64,000 nt of DNA from Lachnospiraceae bacterium G41 (lineage in GTDB: Bacteria; Bacillota; Clostridia; Lachnospirales; Lachnospiraceae). The position numbers and the translations under genes were made by a program. The notes beneath the pieces were generated by a model. It worked only from the letters and a program-made list of their open reading frames with translations. It made no database searches and was not told the DNA's origin. Of this stretch, positions 6,606-9,609 are shown in pieces. The stretch covers positions 1-64,000 of the forward strand of contig FNEU01000008.1 in NCBI GenBank assembly GCA_900100245.1. Direction: 5' to 3'. Within the stretch, counting starts at the first letter, position 1, and every line of letters begins with the position of its first letter.

Positions 6606-7313
6606 TTATTCAATATCTTTTTTTATTTTACCAAGAAAATCTTCTTTATTCTTCTTTGCTGTATCGGATATTTCTTTTCTTGAGGAAGGATCAATATAAT
6701 TGAATACTTCAATGCCTTTAATTCCGATTTCCTGTAATGATTTTATATTATCCTCGTATTCTTTATCTTTATGGAAATTGGGAATAATCGGAACTCTCGC
6801 GATTATCTTTTCGGGTCCGACTTCTTTTAAAAGATATTTAAGATTATTTAAAAAATTATCGTAATCGGCCTTTGTGTACAATTCATATCTATCTTTATTC
6901 ATATCTTTGGTATCAACTATAAACAAATCAATCAGTCCGATTACTTTTTTAAGGTTTTCAAGCGGAACATTCAGGGATGATTCCATTGAAAACTTCCATC
7001 CCGTATCTTTGTATTTTTTTATAAAATTACTGATAAAATCAGCGTTTAAAAGAGGTTCTCCGCCGCCGAACATGACTCCTCCGCCGGTGGCAAGGAAATA
7101 GAGATTGTCGATTTTTAATTCATTGTATAAATCATCAATAGTATATGTTTTACCTTTGATGCTTCCGTCCCAGGTAAAAGGATTGATGCAGTAAGCACAT
7201 CTTAAGGGACAGCCCATAGAAACAACGAGGGTTGTTACGCCCTCGCCGTCTGTTTTTGTTCTTATTCTGCTGACTGAGACTAATTTAATAGTCTCTCCTT
7301 TGTTTTCACTCAT
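6606..7313 (-). CDS. Radical SAM enzyme, glycyl-radical-activase-like, in a pair with a Cys-motif protein
   Basis: The CPLRCAYC motif (Cys35, Cys39, Cys42) binds the 4Fe-4S cluster that cleaves S-adenosylmethionine. GGGVMFGGGEPLL (about 77-89) is the SAM-binding GGEP strand. Size (235 residues) and the GGGV-GGGEP arrangement resemble pyruvate formate-lyase activase without the ferredoxin insert. No glycyl radical enzyme lies in the window. The start is two bases after the stop of the upstream Cys-motif gene, so the two are almost certainly translated together, and the enzyme may modify that protein. A hairpin terminator follows. The family call is firm; the reaction and substrate are inference. 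Confidence 0.85.
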   Translation of the reverse strand: MSENKGETIKLVSVSRIRTKTDGEGVTTLVVSMGCPLRCAYCINPFTWDGSIKGKTYTIDDLYNELKIDNLYFLATGGGVMFGGGEPLLNADFISNFIKKYKDTGWKFSMESSLNVPLENLKKVIGLIDLFIVDTKDMNKDRYELYTKADYDNFLNNLKYLLKEVGPEKIIARVPIIPNFHKDKEYEDNIKSLQEIGIKGIEVFNYIDPSSRKEISDTAKKNKEDFLGKIKKDIE

Positions 7314-7315
7314 AT

Positions 7316-8002
7316 TTAGAATATCTCATCTATTGATATATTAAAATCATCTTCAGGATAGTATTCCAGGCCGCCTTCAAGTTCATAATCATCTTCGTAT
7401 TTCAAATAGTTATTTTCAACAACTATCGAAGAATCTTCTTCGTCGTCAGCATTTTCGGCATCTTCTGGGGTTTCGTCTGTTTCACAATCATCTTCGCAGT
7501 CATCATTTGCATTAAAATTGTTTTCTACAGATCCATCAGTTTCTACGCAAGTTTCGTCATCGCAACCGTCTGTGTTTTCGTCTTCCTCGGGATATATTTC
7601 CACAGGTAAAGGTTCTCCTCCAAGCTGTTCAACTGAAATATCACCTGCATAATCGGGAGCGACTGTAGTTGCACCGCCAAGTTCTTCTCCACCGCCGTTT
7701 CCGCCGTCAAAGATATTAGCAATCGGATCTACGATAGTATAAACAACATTCATGGGATTACATGCTGAAAATGTTGCTGCTATTCCTACAGAAACACCTG
7801 CGATGGCAACCTTCTTACCCGAAAGTCTTCTTTTCTCAAGTTCACTCTCTAGGTATCTTACTTCTGCTTCGCATTTGGGACATGTGCCTTTGCATTTACC
7901 TTTATGCTTGCATTCTTCAATTACATAATTAATATCGTTATTATCAGCTATCTGTTTGCGAATCTGCTTAAGAGCTTTACATTTTTCTTTTCCGTAATTC
8001 AT
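7316..8002 (-). CDS. Acidic Cys-motif protein with internal lipobox-like segment; candidate radical SAM partner
   Basis: I do not recognise a named function. Residues 1-60 are charged and hold Cys8 and the motif C-x5-C-x3-C-x2-C (Cys31, 37, 41, 44, ending GTCPKCEAEVRYLE). Residues 63-81 are a short hydrophobic segment after KK, ending in FSAC, which looks like a displaced signal/lipobox. Residues 82-110 are Gly-rich. The remainder is strongly acidic, with paired cysteines at 147/152 and 169/173. This leader-membrane-acidic-tail plan resembles a modified, exported precursor. Start is ATG with AGGAGG. The radical SAM gene follows at once. An iron-sulfur-binding or RiPP-like role is an inference. 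Confidence 0.7.
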   Translation of the reverse strand: MNYGKEKCKALKQIRKQIADNNDINYVIEECKHKGKCKGTCPKCEAEVRYLESELEKRRLSGKKVAIAGVSVGIAATFSACNPMNVVYTIVDPIANIFDGGNGGGEELGGATTVAPDYAGDISVEQLGGEPLPVEIYPEEDENTDGCDDETCVETDGSVENNFNANDDCEDDCETDETPEDAENADDEEDSSIVVENNYLKYEDDYELEGGLEYYPEDDFNISIDEIF

Positions 8003-8106
8003 ATCTGACCTCCTGAAAATCTTTTATGAGTTTTTCTGTTATCTGATTAATATACGAATCAGCAAAAAAGATTTATGGGATAATCATAAAATTTTTTATA
8101 AATGCT

Positions 8107-9609
8107 TTATAAATCATAAAAATATTCTTCAGTTTCTTGATTAGCGAAAGGATCATAGTAGATATTATTGTCTTTTTCGTACTGATAAATATCGTATCCG
8201 TGACCCCAATCGGTATCGAAACTGTATTGGTTCATAAAATATTCGTCAAAATCATTGATTGTGACCGTTACCCAGCCGTAATCGTACTGATATCGATAAT
8301 TAATTCCGACTTCAATTCCAAGAGGTGTAAATAACATAATAAGTGCATCGTCATCCTGGAAAACCTTGGCGGTATCTTCGTAAGGACTGTAATTGATTGC
8401 ATCAACGTAGCTGTTCTGAATGTTGGAACGTTCTACGAAAAATTCTGCGAAGTCTCCTCTGAAATCAAGTATGGCGGTATTATCTATTACTCCGCCATTT
8501 TTAACATCAATATTGATTCCATGAACATAGAAATTCTCAATGTAGTTGTTTTCATAAGAAGTAGTAGAAAATCCTATTGAGATAACCTCGTCATTGTTAA
8601 ATGTTACAACCGAATCTGTATAAAGTGTGTAATTAAATGTTTCGTCCGAGTTTGTATTCTTCTTCTTTGAAACATATTCATAAAGTTCACTGATTGCCTG
8701 ATTTCTTAATGCTTCATTGGCCTTTGTAAAATCAACTTTATCGGAGCTTAAAGCATAATATGTGCAGTATGCATTGATGAAAAGACCGTCACATTCGCCC
8801 TCATAACGAATGGCTCTTCTTTCAACGGTATAATTCTTATTCGGGATATACGAATCAATCAGATATTCGTAGTAAGGTGTCTCAAAACCGTCTCTTTCTA
8901 TAAAATTGTGACTTACTTCAGATCTTAAATATGAGGAATAATTACCGTTTATAAAATAATCAAAATTATCCTCTGCGGGTTCATCCCAGTACTCATTGGC
9001 TGAAGGAACGATATTGTTGATAAAATCATCGTAATCAAGTTTTGAAGTACCGGAATAAAGTGGCTCAATTGTTTTTGCATAATAATATTCATCCGAATCC
9101 GGATCATATATATCGGGATCAACATCAGGGTCAACATCGGGATCAATATCAGGGTCAACATCGGGATCAATATCAGGATCTATATCGGGATCAATATCAG
9201 GATCTATATCGGGATCAATGTCAGGGAAAAGATTGTTGATATTGTTGTTATTGTTATTATTATTGGTTGGAAGATTTGTCTGAGTGGTAACCTGCGTTGT
9301 ATTGTAAACGCCTTTAATAACTATCGGTAAGAATGCAGCAACAAAAAGAACCACTAAAAGAATAATGGTAACCAAAACCACTGCTACACCGATTAAAAGG
9401 CCGATAATCCAGCCCTTTGAGCTCTTATTTGTGTTAGGAGCAGACTTCTTTCTCTCGGGACCGGTATAAAATACCTGTTCTGTAGTAGCATTCTGCTCAT
9501 TTACATTATTTTCGACAGGCTCTTCTTTATTGAGATTATATCCGCAGTTTGTGCAAACGCCCGGTTTTGTTACGGCTCCGCAACGCGGACAGAAAACAAA
9601 TTCATTCAT
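8107..9609 (-). CDS. Zinc-ribbon, single-pass membrane protein with DPD(I/V) repeat and DUF3298-like outer domain
   Basis: The N-terminal zinc ribbon has CPRCG and CTNCG (Cys7, 10, 19, 22). One transmembrane helix spans about 66-97. An Asn-rich stretch (115-126) is followed by about ten DPDI/DPDV units (129-168), likely a stiff, calcium-friendly spacer outside the cell. The outer domain (about 180-500) is rich in Tyr and Asp. Its SIGFSTTSYENN and FTPLGIEVGINYRY patterns recall DUF3298/RsiV-type extracellular domains, with moderate certainty. It begins 17 bases after cinA with AGAGGG, so it is likely the last cinA-operon gene. A sensor or surface-protein role is inference. Confidence 0.72.
   Translation of the reverse strand: MNEFVFCPRCGAVTKPGVCTNCGYNLNKEEPVENNVNEQNATTEQVFYTGPERKKSAPNTNKSSKGWIIGLLIGVAVVLVTIILLVVLFVAAFLPIVIKGVYNTTQVTTQTNLPTNNNNNNNNINNLFPDIDPDIDPDIDPDIDPDIDPDVDPDIDPDVDPDVDPDIYDPDSDEYYYAKTIEPLYSGTSKLDYDDFINNIVPSANEYWDEPAEDNFDYFINGNYSSYLRSEVSHNFIERDGFETPYYEYLIDSYIPNKNYTVERRAIRYEGECDGLFINAYCTYYALSSDKVDFTKANEALRNQAISELYEYVSKKKNTNSDETFNYTLYTDSVVTFNNDEVISIGFSTTSYENNYIENFYVHGINIDVKNGGVIDNTAILDFRGDFAEFFVERSNIQNSYVDAINYSPYEDTAKVFQDDDALIMLFTPLGIEVGINYRYQYDYGWVTVTINDFDEYFMNQYSFDTDWGHGYDIYQYEKDNNIYYDPFANQETEEYFYDL
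9098..9226 (-). repeat. In-frame 12/24-bp minisatellite encoding DPDI/DPDV
   Basis: Alternating units of GGGATCAATATC and AGGATCTATATC type run without interruption and encode the Asp-Pro spacer. Synonymous alternation between GATCCC/GATCCT and ATT/ATA, plus GTT variants, gives a 24-bp higher-order period. Copy number is likely variable between strains. Confidence 0.85.

Follow-up and report, generated by a model that had tools for sequence, protein, structure and literature searches.

A radical SAM enzyme and the protein encoded next to it in the window (the whole stretch of 64,000 nucleotides from Lachnospiraceae bacterium G41 that was analysed here) probably form part of a hitherto undescribed system by which exported proteins are chemically modified. 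We favour, at somewhat better than even chances, a leader-guided system of two parts: in the manner of a RiPP maturase, the radical SAM enzyme would act on the partner protein, an exported precursor. In the original prediction the partner consisted, in this order, of a leader, a membrane or processing site and an exported modified tail. This reading was supported by a leader that is conserved, a lipobox or AxA site behind it, and hypervariable tails that carry a glycine motif.

Both genes lie on the minus strand with the partner upstream, and the open reading frame calls and the window sequence verified the predicted two-base spacing between them (coordinates of all features are collected in the table). 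Along the minus strand the gene order is cinA-like, zinc-ribbon membrane protein, partner, radical SAM enzyme and recA-like, these names having been assigned by eye. The gene directly upstream of the pair (8107-9609, minus strand) encodes a protein of 500 aa, in which a zinc-ribbon-like CxxC pair at the N-terminus is accompanied by a single membrane segment and DPDIDPD repeats. It was considered as a further member of the system and rejected: a long open reading frame occupies this place in many loci of the same genus and is absent in L033-L035.

Table. Features of the radical SAM enzyme and its partner in the window.
Feature	Position	Strand	Basis or remark
Radical SAM gene, 235 aa, PFL-AE-like	6606..7313	-	Open reading frame, Pfam, NCBIfam, AF2/Foldseek
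D134-T-K136, D-x-K motif	6906..6914	-	D134 and K136 invariant in 57-row alignment
GGGEP, SAM-binding GGE motif (residues 83-87)	7053..7067	-	G83-E86 invariant in 57-row alignment
CPLRCAYC, SAM-cluster motif (C35, C39, C42)	7188..7211	-	Three Cys invariant in 57-row alignment
Partner gene, 228 aa, candidate precursor or substrate	7316..8002	-	Open reading frame
Hypervariable acidic tail, residues 82-228, candidate modified core	7319..7759	-	Identity comparison; low model confidence
Tail glycine site LEGGL, residues 208-212	7367..7381	-	Loose match only
Tail glycine site LGGEP, residues 127-131	7610..7624	-	The one strict match of the window protein
Tail glycine site YAGDI, residues 118-122	7637..7651	-	Loose match only
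Tail glycine site LGGAT, residues 108-112	7667..7681	-	Loose match only
Hydrophobic export-signal segment ending in lipobox-like FSAC, C81	7760..7819	-	Cys/AxA survey of relatives
Cys leader domain, residues 4-58: C8, then C31-x5-C37-x3-C41-x2-C44	7829..7993	-	Cys invariance in alignments
AGGAGG ribosome-binding site of partner gene	8009..8014	-	Sequence read directly; six bases from ATG

A compact radical SAM enzyme resembling glycyl-radical activases

The CPLRCAYC and GGGEP motifs named in the original prediction are both present in the enzyme; in its relatives the residue after GGGE is P or another, such as S. The D-x-K motif, which we take to be a motif of glycyl-radical-enzyme activases, aligns with the D-x-K of E. 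coli PFL-AE. Radical_SAM (56.7 bits) and Fer4_12 were the only Pfam families above cut-off, and no SPASM, Twitch or RRE family was found on the 235 residues of the protein. The closest NCBIfam models are those of glycyl-radical-enzyme activases: TIGR02494 gave 131.2 bits, under its cut-off of 174.35, and TIGR02493 gave 109.3 bits, under its cut-off of 231.75. All 57 rows of the enzyme alignment, the window protein included, matched both models at E values up to 1e-5. The best Foldseek matches of the AlphaFold2 model (pLDDT 94.3) were structures of PFL-AE, the top one being 3cb8, a PFL-AE entry with a bound peptide substrate (E 4.8e-15, TM 0.76, rmsd 7.6). The predicted likeness to a glycyl-radical activase thus holds for the TIGR02494 profile in every row and for the fold. 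With the activases of TIGR02493 and TIGR02494 the enzyme shares CxxxCxxC, GGE, D-x-K and the PFL-AE fold; it differs from them in staying under both cut-offs, in having no adjacent glycyl radical enzyme, and in being linked to Cys-domain proteins in which a glycine motif recurs.

An activase-like sequence and fold would also be expected if the enzyme activated a glycyl radical enzyme encoded elsewhere, the partner being a regulator or chaperone. We regard this as very improbable. Besides the scores under both cut-offs, the enzyme tracks the Cys domain exactly in the class sample described below. Moreover, in a search of the genome for PF01228, the single gene found sits on another contig (C21, the window pair being on C18), in keeping with the prediction that no glycyl radical enzyme is nearby. 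A PflA gene that passes the TIGR02493 cut-off with 288 bits lies about 2 kb from it on C21, so the window enzyme is dispensable for the PF01228 enzyme, and we rejected it as the activase of the genome's own PFL. Also rejected was an assignment as viperin or defence gene, for which two PADLOC pVip models gave weak matches confined to residues 32-110 or 34-110 (22.7 and 21.6 bits).

Leader, export signal and tail of the partner

The partner carries the predicted C-x5-C-x3-C-x2-C motif as C31, C37, C41 and C44, its hydrophobic stretch ends in FSAC at C81, close to the 80 residues anticipated, and the paired cysteines of the acidic tail are C147, C152, C169 and C173. A fifth leader cysteine, C8, had been overlooked. 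All five leader cysteines are invariant in an alignment of 78 partner rows, and also in an 11-row alignment that includes enzyme-fused and C-terminal copies of the domain; the Cys-domain leader is conserved across phyla.

For the window partner no known family in Pfam or NCBIfam reached its cut-off, and no known unrelated function of the family, a finding that the original prediction had named as counting against it, turned up. When the 78 partner rows were searched, the window protein at full length and the others as N-terminal segments, the weak Pfam and NCBIfam matches were zinc ribbons or scattered models. The commonest weak Pfam match was a zinc ribbon (43/78 rows, best E 6e-4), none of the 78 rows gave a SPASM match in Pfam, and the best match of the Cys domain among solved structures had an E value of only 0.15. 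The C-x5-C-x-G-x-C-P spacing of the domain presumably resembles the end of SPASM domains. The domain may bind a [4Fe-4S] cluster or zinc, the weak Pfam matches leaning to zinc ribbons. We make no claim on its metal geometry, since the predicted structure of the partner is of low confidence (pLDDT 60), with a low-confidence tail that is mostly without secondary structure.

Leader and tail differ strongly in conservation. Over the 351 pairs formed by 27 sequences of the genus (L036 left out), mean identity was 0.73 in the first 78 residues versus 0.20 in the tail. The segment between them has the features of an export signal. Once partners with fewer than 60 aa after CPxC had been dropped, a lipobox-like cysteine, placed after the hydrophobic segment as in lipoproteins, was found 36-40 residues past CPxC in 104 of 115 unique partners with a loose pattern and in 47 of 115 with a strict one. 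Ten of the 11 partners without this cysteine, all ten from Bacteroidia loci, have a signal-peptidase-I-like AxA instead, which is followed by Gln in nine. Such a swap is the behaviour that would be expected of an export signal, and it would argue against C81 as a metal ligand; the behaviour of the Cys domain is thus that of a leader, which export would cleave off. The short n-region of lipoproteins is not found here, about 60 residues, Cys domain included, preceding the hydrophobic segment.

Tails from unrelated loci diverge widely yet carry a glycine motif. In its strict form, [LI]xG[DEG][VAPI], it occurred 12.4 times per 1000 aa in 117 tails versus 0.46 in 290 other long open reading frames from loci L040-L119, a frequency about 27 times higher. 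For these counts L037, open reading frames without GxCPxC, duplicates and tails under 30 aa were dropped. A deduplicated set of 68 tails from outside the genus, from which tails with at least 20% of their 5-mers in common with a kept or genus tail had also been removed, contained 99 matches versus 8.6 ± 2.9 in 1000 shuffles (maximum 18), a count that is not a blind hold-out, the strict motif having been fixed after genus and non-genus tails were inspected. The controls were the open reading frame baseline and the reversed motif, which gave 20 matches versus 99 forward in the same 68 tails. At least one match was present in 57 of the 68 tails and none in 11. Of the four sites in the window tail, one is a strict match and the other three are loose.

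Positional counts revealed no constant residue at -1 or +1, and glycine is therefore the one fixed position of the motif. Known activases abstract a hydrogen from the Cα-atom of a loop glycine that is preceded by an aliphatic residue at position -2. Because glycine alone is fixed and the enzyme has the PFL-AE fold, we favour the glycine Cα-atom as the likely target.

Further types of tail occur among the relatives. Some Bacteroidales partners hold a TonB_C or CarbopepD_reg domain in this region. The tails of two Clostridial partners (L079 6001-7356 and L111 5384-5962) look globular, unlike acidic repeats; the L079 protein gave no Pfam match at E 0.01.

Linkage of the pair and the Cys domain as a portable module

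The first 93 residues of the partner found matches in 28 of 61 genomes searched, all 28 being among the 31 of the same genus, and the radical SAM gene was next downstream of the partner in every one of the 28 loci (the copy in L012 is partial at a contig end). The pairing of enzyme and partner proposed in the original prediction is thus beyond chance. Of 463 pattern matches in named genomes, 428 were confirmed as relatives; the best 80 of the 428, which were retained, come from Lachnospiraceae, other Clostridia, and Bacteroidales and relatives, mostly of rumen and gut. The radical SAM subfamily was present in 79 of 82 partner loci (L039 onward; many in the same genomes as the 28 of the genus), and the three loci without it are cut by contig ends (L059 and L078, with the partner at the end, and L110, a 3.7-kb contig). 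The enzyme gene occupies the last place in 67 of the 79 loci and the first place in 11; in L106 it lies on the opposite strand, 2.4 kb from the partner. One enzyme is accompanied by a single partner in 64 loci and by up to six (one locus). On an HMM built from 23 enzymes of the genus, partner-linked enzymes scored 214-409 bits, one truncated by a contig end scored 176 bits, and the best other radical SAM protein reached 118.5 bits.

The same coupling was seen in samples of genomes. The Cys domain occurred in 12 of 391 genomes of the class, the source genome included (up to 13 candidates scored per genome), and the enzyme profile reached at least 169 bits in the same 12 (up to seven candidates scored per genome); the scores in these 12 were 169-311 bits, the next best match being 135, and in all of them the enzyme adjoins or is fused with the Cys domain. 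The system was also present in 2/295 genomes of the order, 2/299 of the phylum and 5/189 of the order of G966. Partner homologues that commonly stand without an adjacent radical SAM gene had been named beforehand as evidence against the prediction. In 17 Bacteroidia genomes, selected for holding a partner locus, the enzyme lay beside 42 of 51 Cys-domain matches, and seven of the nine remaining matches were in genomes with the enzyme on another contig. The last two matches are both in one genome, G1008, in which no such enzyme was found.

An ordinary lipoprotein family tied to the enzyme by operon inheritance or a mobile element, and not biochemically, could likewise produce genomic linkage. 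The patchy spread over the four samples above would fit this explanation, as would the location of the pair of Segatella copri on a 93-kb plasmid near mobilization (MobC, relaxase) and integrase genes. The linkage persists, however, across gene orders, tail types and phyla, and the domain fuses to the enzyme. Cys-domain and enzyme identities are also correlated over 77 pairs with the enzyme above 200 bits (r 0.56; permutation maximum 0.10), a value that ignores species phylogeny, could arise from shared ancestry alone and is supportive only. We consider a purely genomic association improbable.

The Cys domain is found on other proteins as well. A related radical SAM enzyme (169 and 185 bits with the family profile) carries it as a C-terminal fusion in L149 and L150. 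Each fusion is followed by a short lipoprotein without the Cys domain (L149 1633-1926; L150 7508-7753) that has a loose glycine match, SLMGIP and NVVGMM, respectively. Within the family of G440 the fusion was found in G440 only (1/5), and none of 15 pattern matches in viral contigs was a fusion protein. FtsZ-like or unnamed proteins with the domain at their C-terminus are encoded beside the radical SAM subfamily in the order of G966 as well as in G346 and G380. Divergent FtsZ-like GTPases with a C-terminal five-Cys domain, followed by the enzyme, are encoded in L187 (502-1728) and L191 (1426-2835); the L187 protein matches Pfam Tubulin with 85 bits, and those of L190 and L191 are FtsZ-like by eye. 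Proteins of 330-350 aa with a C-terminal Cys domain stand beside the enzyme in L151 (6639-7682), L152 (6228-7229) and L193 (1459-2454), the one in L151 giving no Pfam match at E 0.01. No export signal was seen in this clade of FtsZ-like and unnamed proteins, and no glycine motif follows the Cys domain in L190, L191 or L193; in L193, IMGEI stands upstream of the domain.

These arrangements bear on the alternative that the Cys domain is an Fe-S (or zinc) accessory of the enzyme, a detachable counterpart of SPASM, with the tail as anchor or spacer and the true substrate elsewhere. The fusions to the enzyme C-terminus in L149 and L150, the fusions to FtsZ-like and other proteins beside the enzyme, the five invariant cysteines and the presumed resemblance in spacing to the SPASM end would all suit such a role. 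Against it stand the lack of any Pfam SPASM match for the 78 partner rows and the lipoprotein with a loose glycine motif that still follows in both fusion genomes, and the repeated glycine motif, the hypervariable tails and the presence of up to six partners per enzyme would be left unexplained. We judge this alternative unlikely. Since the domain can be fused to the enzyme, it may still be an iron-sulfur donor, as the original prediction had allowed.

L037 (1462-1806; genome G013) encodes a short Cys-domain protein, of about 110 aa, that has no export signal and ends in IMVGNILPPEYFKDLD. A motif scan flagged no radical SAM gene within 13 kb around it (L154); the same genome has a normal pair of partner and enzyme elsewhere.

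Proposed mechanism and relation to described systems

In the leader-guided system that we favour, the five-Cys N-terminal domain of the ribosomally made partner would recruit the adjacent PFL-AE-type enzyme in the cytoplasm. SAM cleavage by the enzyme would be followed by hydrogen abstraction within the tail, the most likely site being the Cα-atom of the glycine in the recurring [LI]-x-G-x-[VAPI]. The modified chain would enter the Sec/lipoprotein pathway, where the Cys domain would be lost by cleavage before C81 at the lipobox or, in some Bacteroidales members, at a signal-peptidase-I site; a lipid-anchored or free modified tail would remain. Genetic linkage and the fusions suggest that the Cys domain brings enzyme and substrate together, the swap of cleavage sites points to release from the leader at the lipobox, and the fold and the motif are consistent with the generation of a radical on the tail. 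We infer that the enzyme modifies the partner and that glycine would be the site; any metal bound by the Cys domain, and the group finally installed, are likewise a matter of inference.

The loci show the arrangement expected of RiPPs, in which an enzyme adjoins a precursor whose leader is conserved and whose core varies. Read from sequence, motif enrichment and pairing are an association rather than catalysis, and several findings count against the favoured reading. The motif is short, its strict form was fixed after the tails had been inspected, 11 of 68 tails are without it, the window tail has it in strict form once, and both lipoproteins downstream of the fusions match it loosely. The C-terminal Cys domains of the FtsZ-like and unnamed proteins, with no export signal seen, also count against it, as do the Cys-domain proteins of L037 and G1008, for which no enzyme was found beside the gene or in the genome, respectively. 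A more specific version is that a PFL-AE-type enzyme does not activate a single glycyl radical enzyme but abstracts Cα-hydrogens from the repeated glycines of exported lipoproteins and other proteins, which would install a new glycine modification. Its guide would be a portable five-Cys module, acting in recognition or as an auxiliary cluster, which evolution may have attached to substrates, to the enzyme itself or to FtsZ-like GTPases. This version we hold only tentatively, at rather less than even chances.

In the part of the literature covered here, the nearest published idea is that of the DAG-RiPPs, RiPP-lipoprotein hybrids made by MNIO enzymes (main text of preprint PMC12636315). As in the window pair, precursors with a lipoprotein signal are acted upon by a RiPP enzyme, and some substrates are whole proteins; the DAG-RiPPs differ in their MNIO enzyme and in a C-terminal motif that is recognised in the ChrH subfamily; the window pair has a radical SAM enzyme instead, and its Cys domain is N-terminal. 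The main text of that preprint makes no mention of radical SAM. According to the covered part of PMC12452194, bufferins are similar in that a Sec signal peptide replaces the classical leader, some precursors are long and domain fusions occur; they differ in having an MNIO enzyme with a separate partner protein and a Cys-containing core, whereas the system described here has the Cys domain built into the precursor or the enzyme. The enzyme linked to our partner family is a radical SAM protein and not the MNIO enzyme of DAG-RiPPs and bufferins.

SPASM-type radical SAM maturases of RiPPs, such as those of sactipeptides and ranthipeptides, likewise lie beside short precursors with a leader and a variable core, and a large proportion of them have RRE and SPASM or Twitch domains (covered part of review PMC8326336). 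In contrast, the enzymes described here have about 200-245 aa, with neither RRE nor SPASM/Twitch seen. The C-terminal auxiliary cluster domain of SPASM/Twitch proteins is missing from the 235-aa enzyme, and the two fusions place the Cys domain at this position. Lipoproteins find no mention in the covered part of the same review, nor do TonB or lipoproteins in that of a survey of Bacteroidales RiPPs (PMC10352776). Among the matches listed in a search of the full-text literature, judged by titles and the starts of abstracts and including few subscription journals, none was a published description of the pair.

If the favoured reading is true, evolution has turned a glycyl-radical-activase fold into a maturase of exported lipoproteins, and the system would be the first radical SAM RiPP-lipoprotein hybrid to our knowledge, none being among the literature matches listed. 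It would possibly also be the first peptide modification centred on the glycine Cα-atom outside glycyl radical enzymes that we know of. A Cys module that shifts between precursor and enzyme would offer a handle on how a signal-peptide-bearing precursor waits for its modification; how such a precursor is held back until modified is a question that the covered part of PMC12452194 raises for bufferins. Bacillota and Bacteroidota of the rumen and gut have the system, among them a strain of Segatella copri, and it is therefore testable in the laboratory. In that strain (NZ_CP137558.1; L131 6139-8627), two genes annotated as 'energy transducer TonB' and one annotated as 'radical SAM protein' constitute the same pair.
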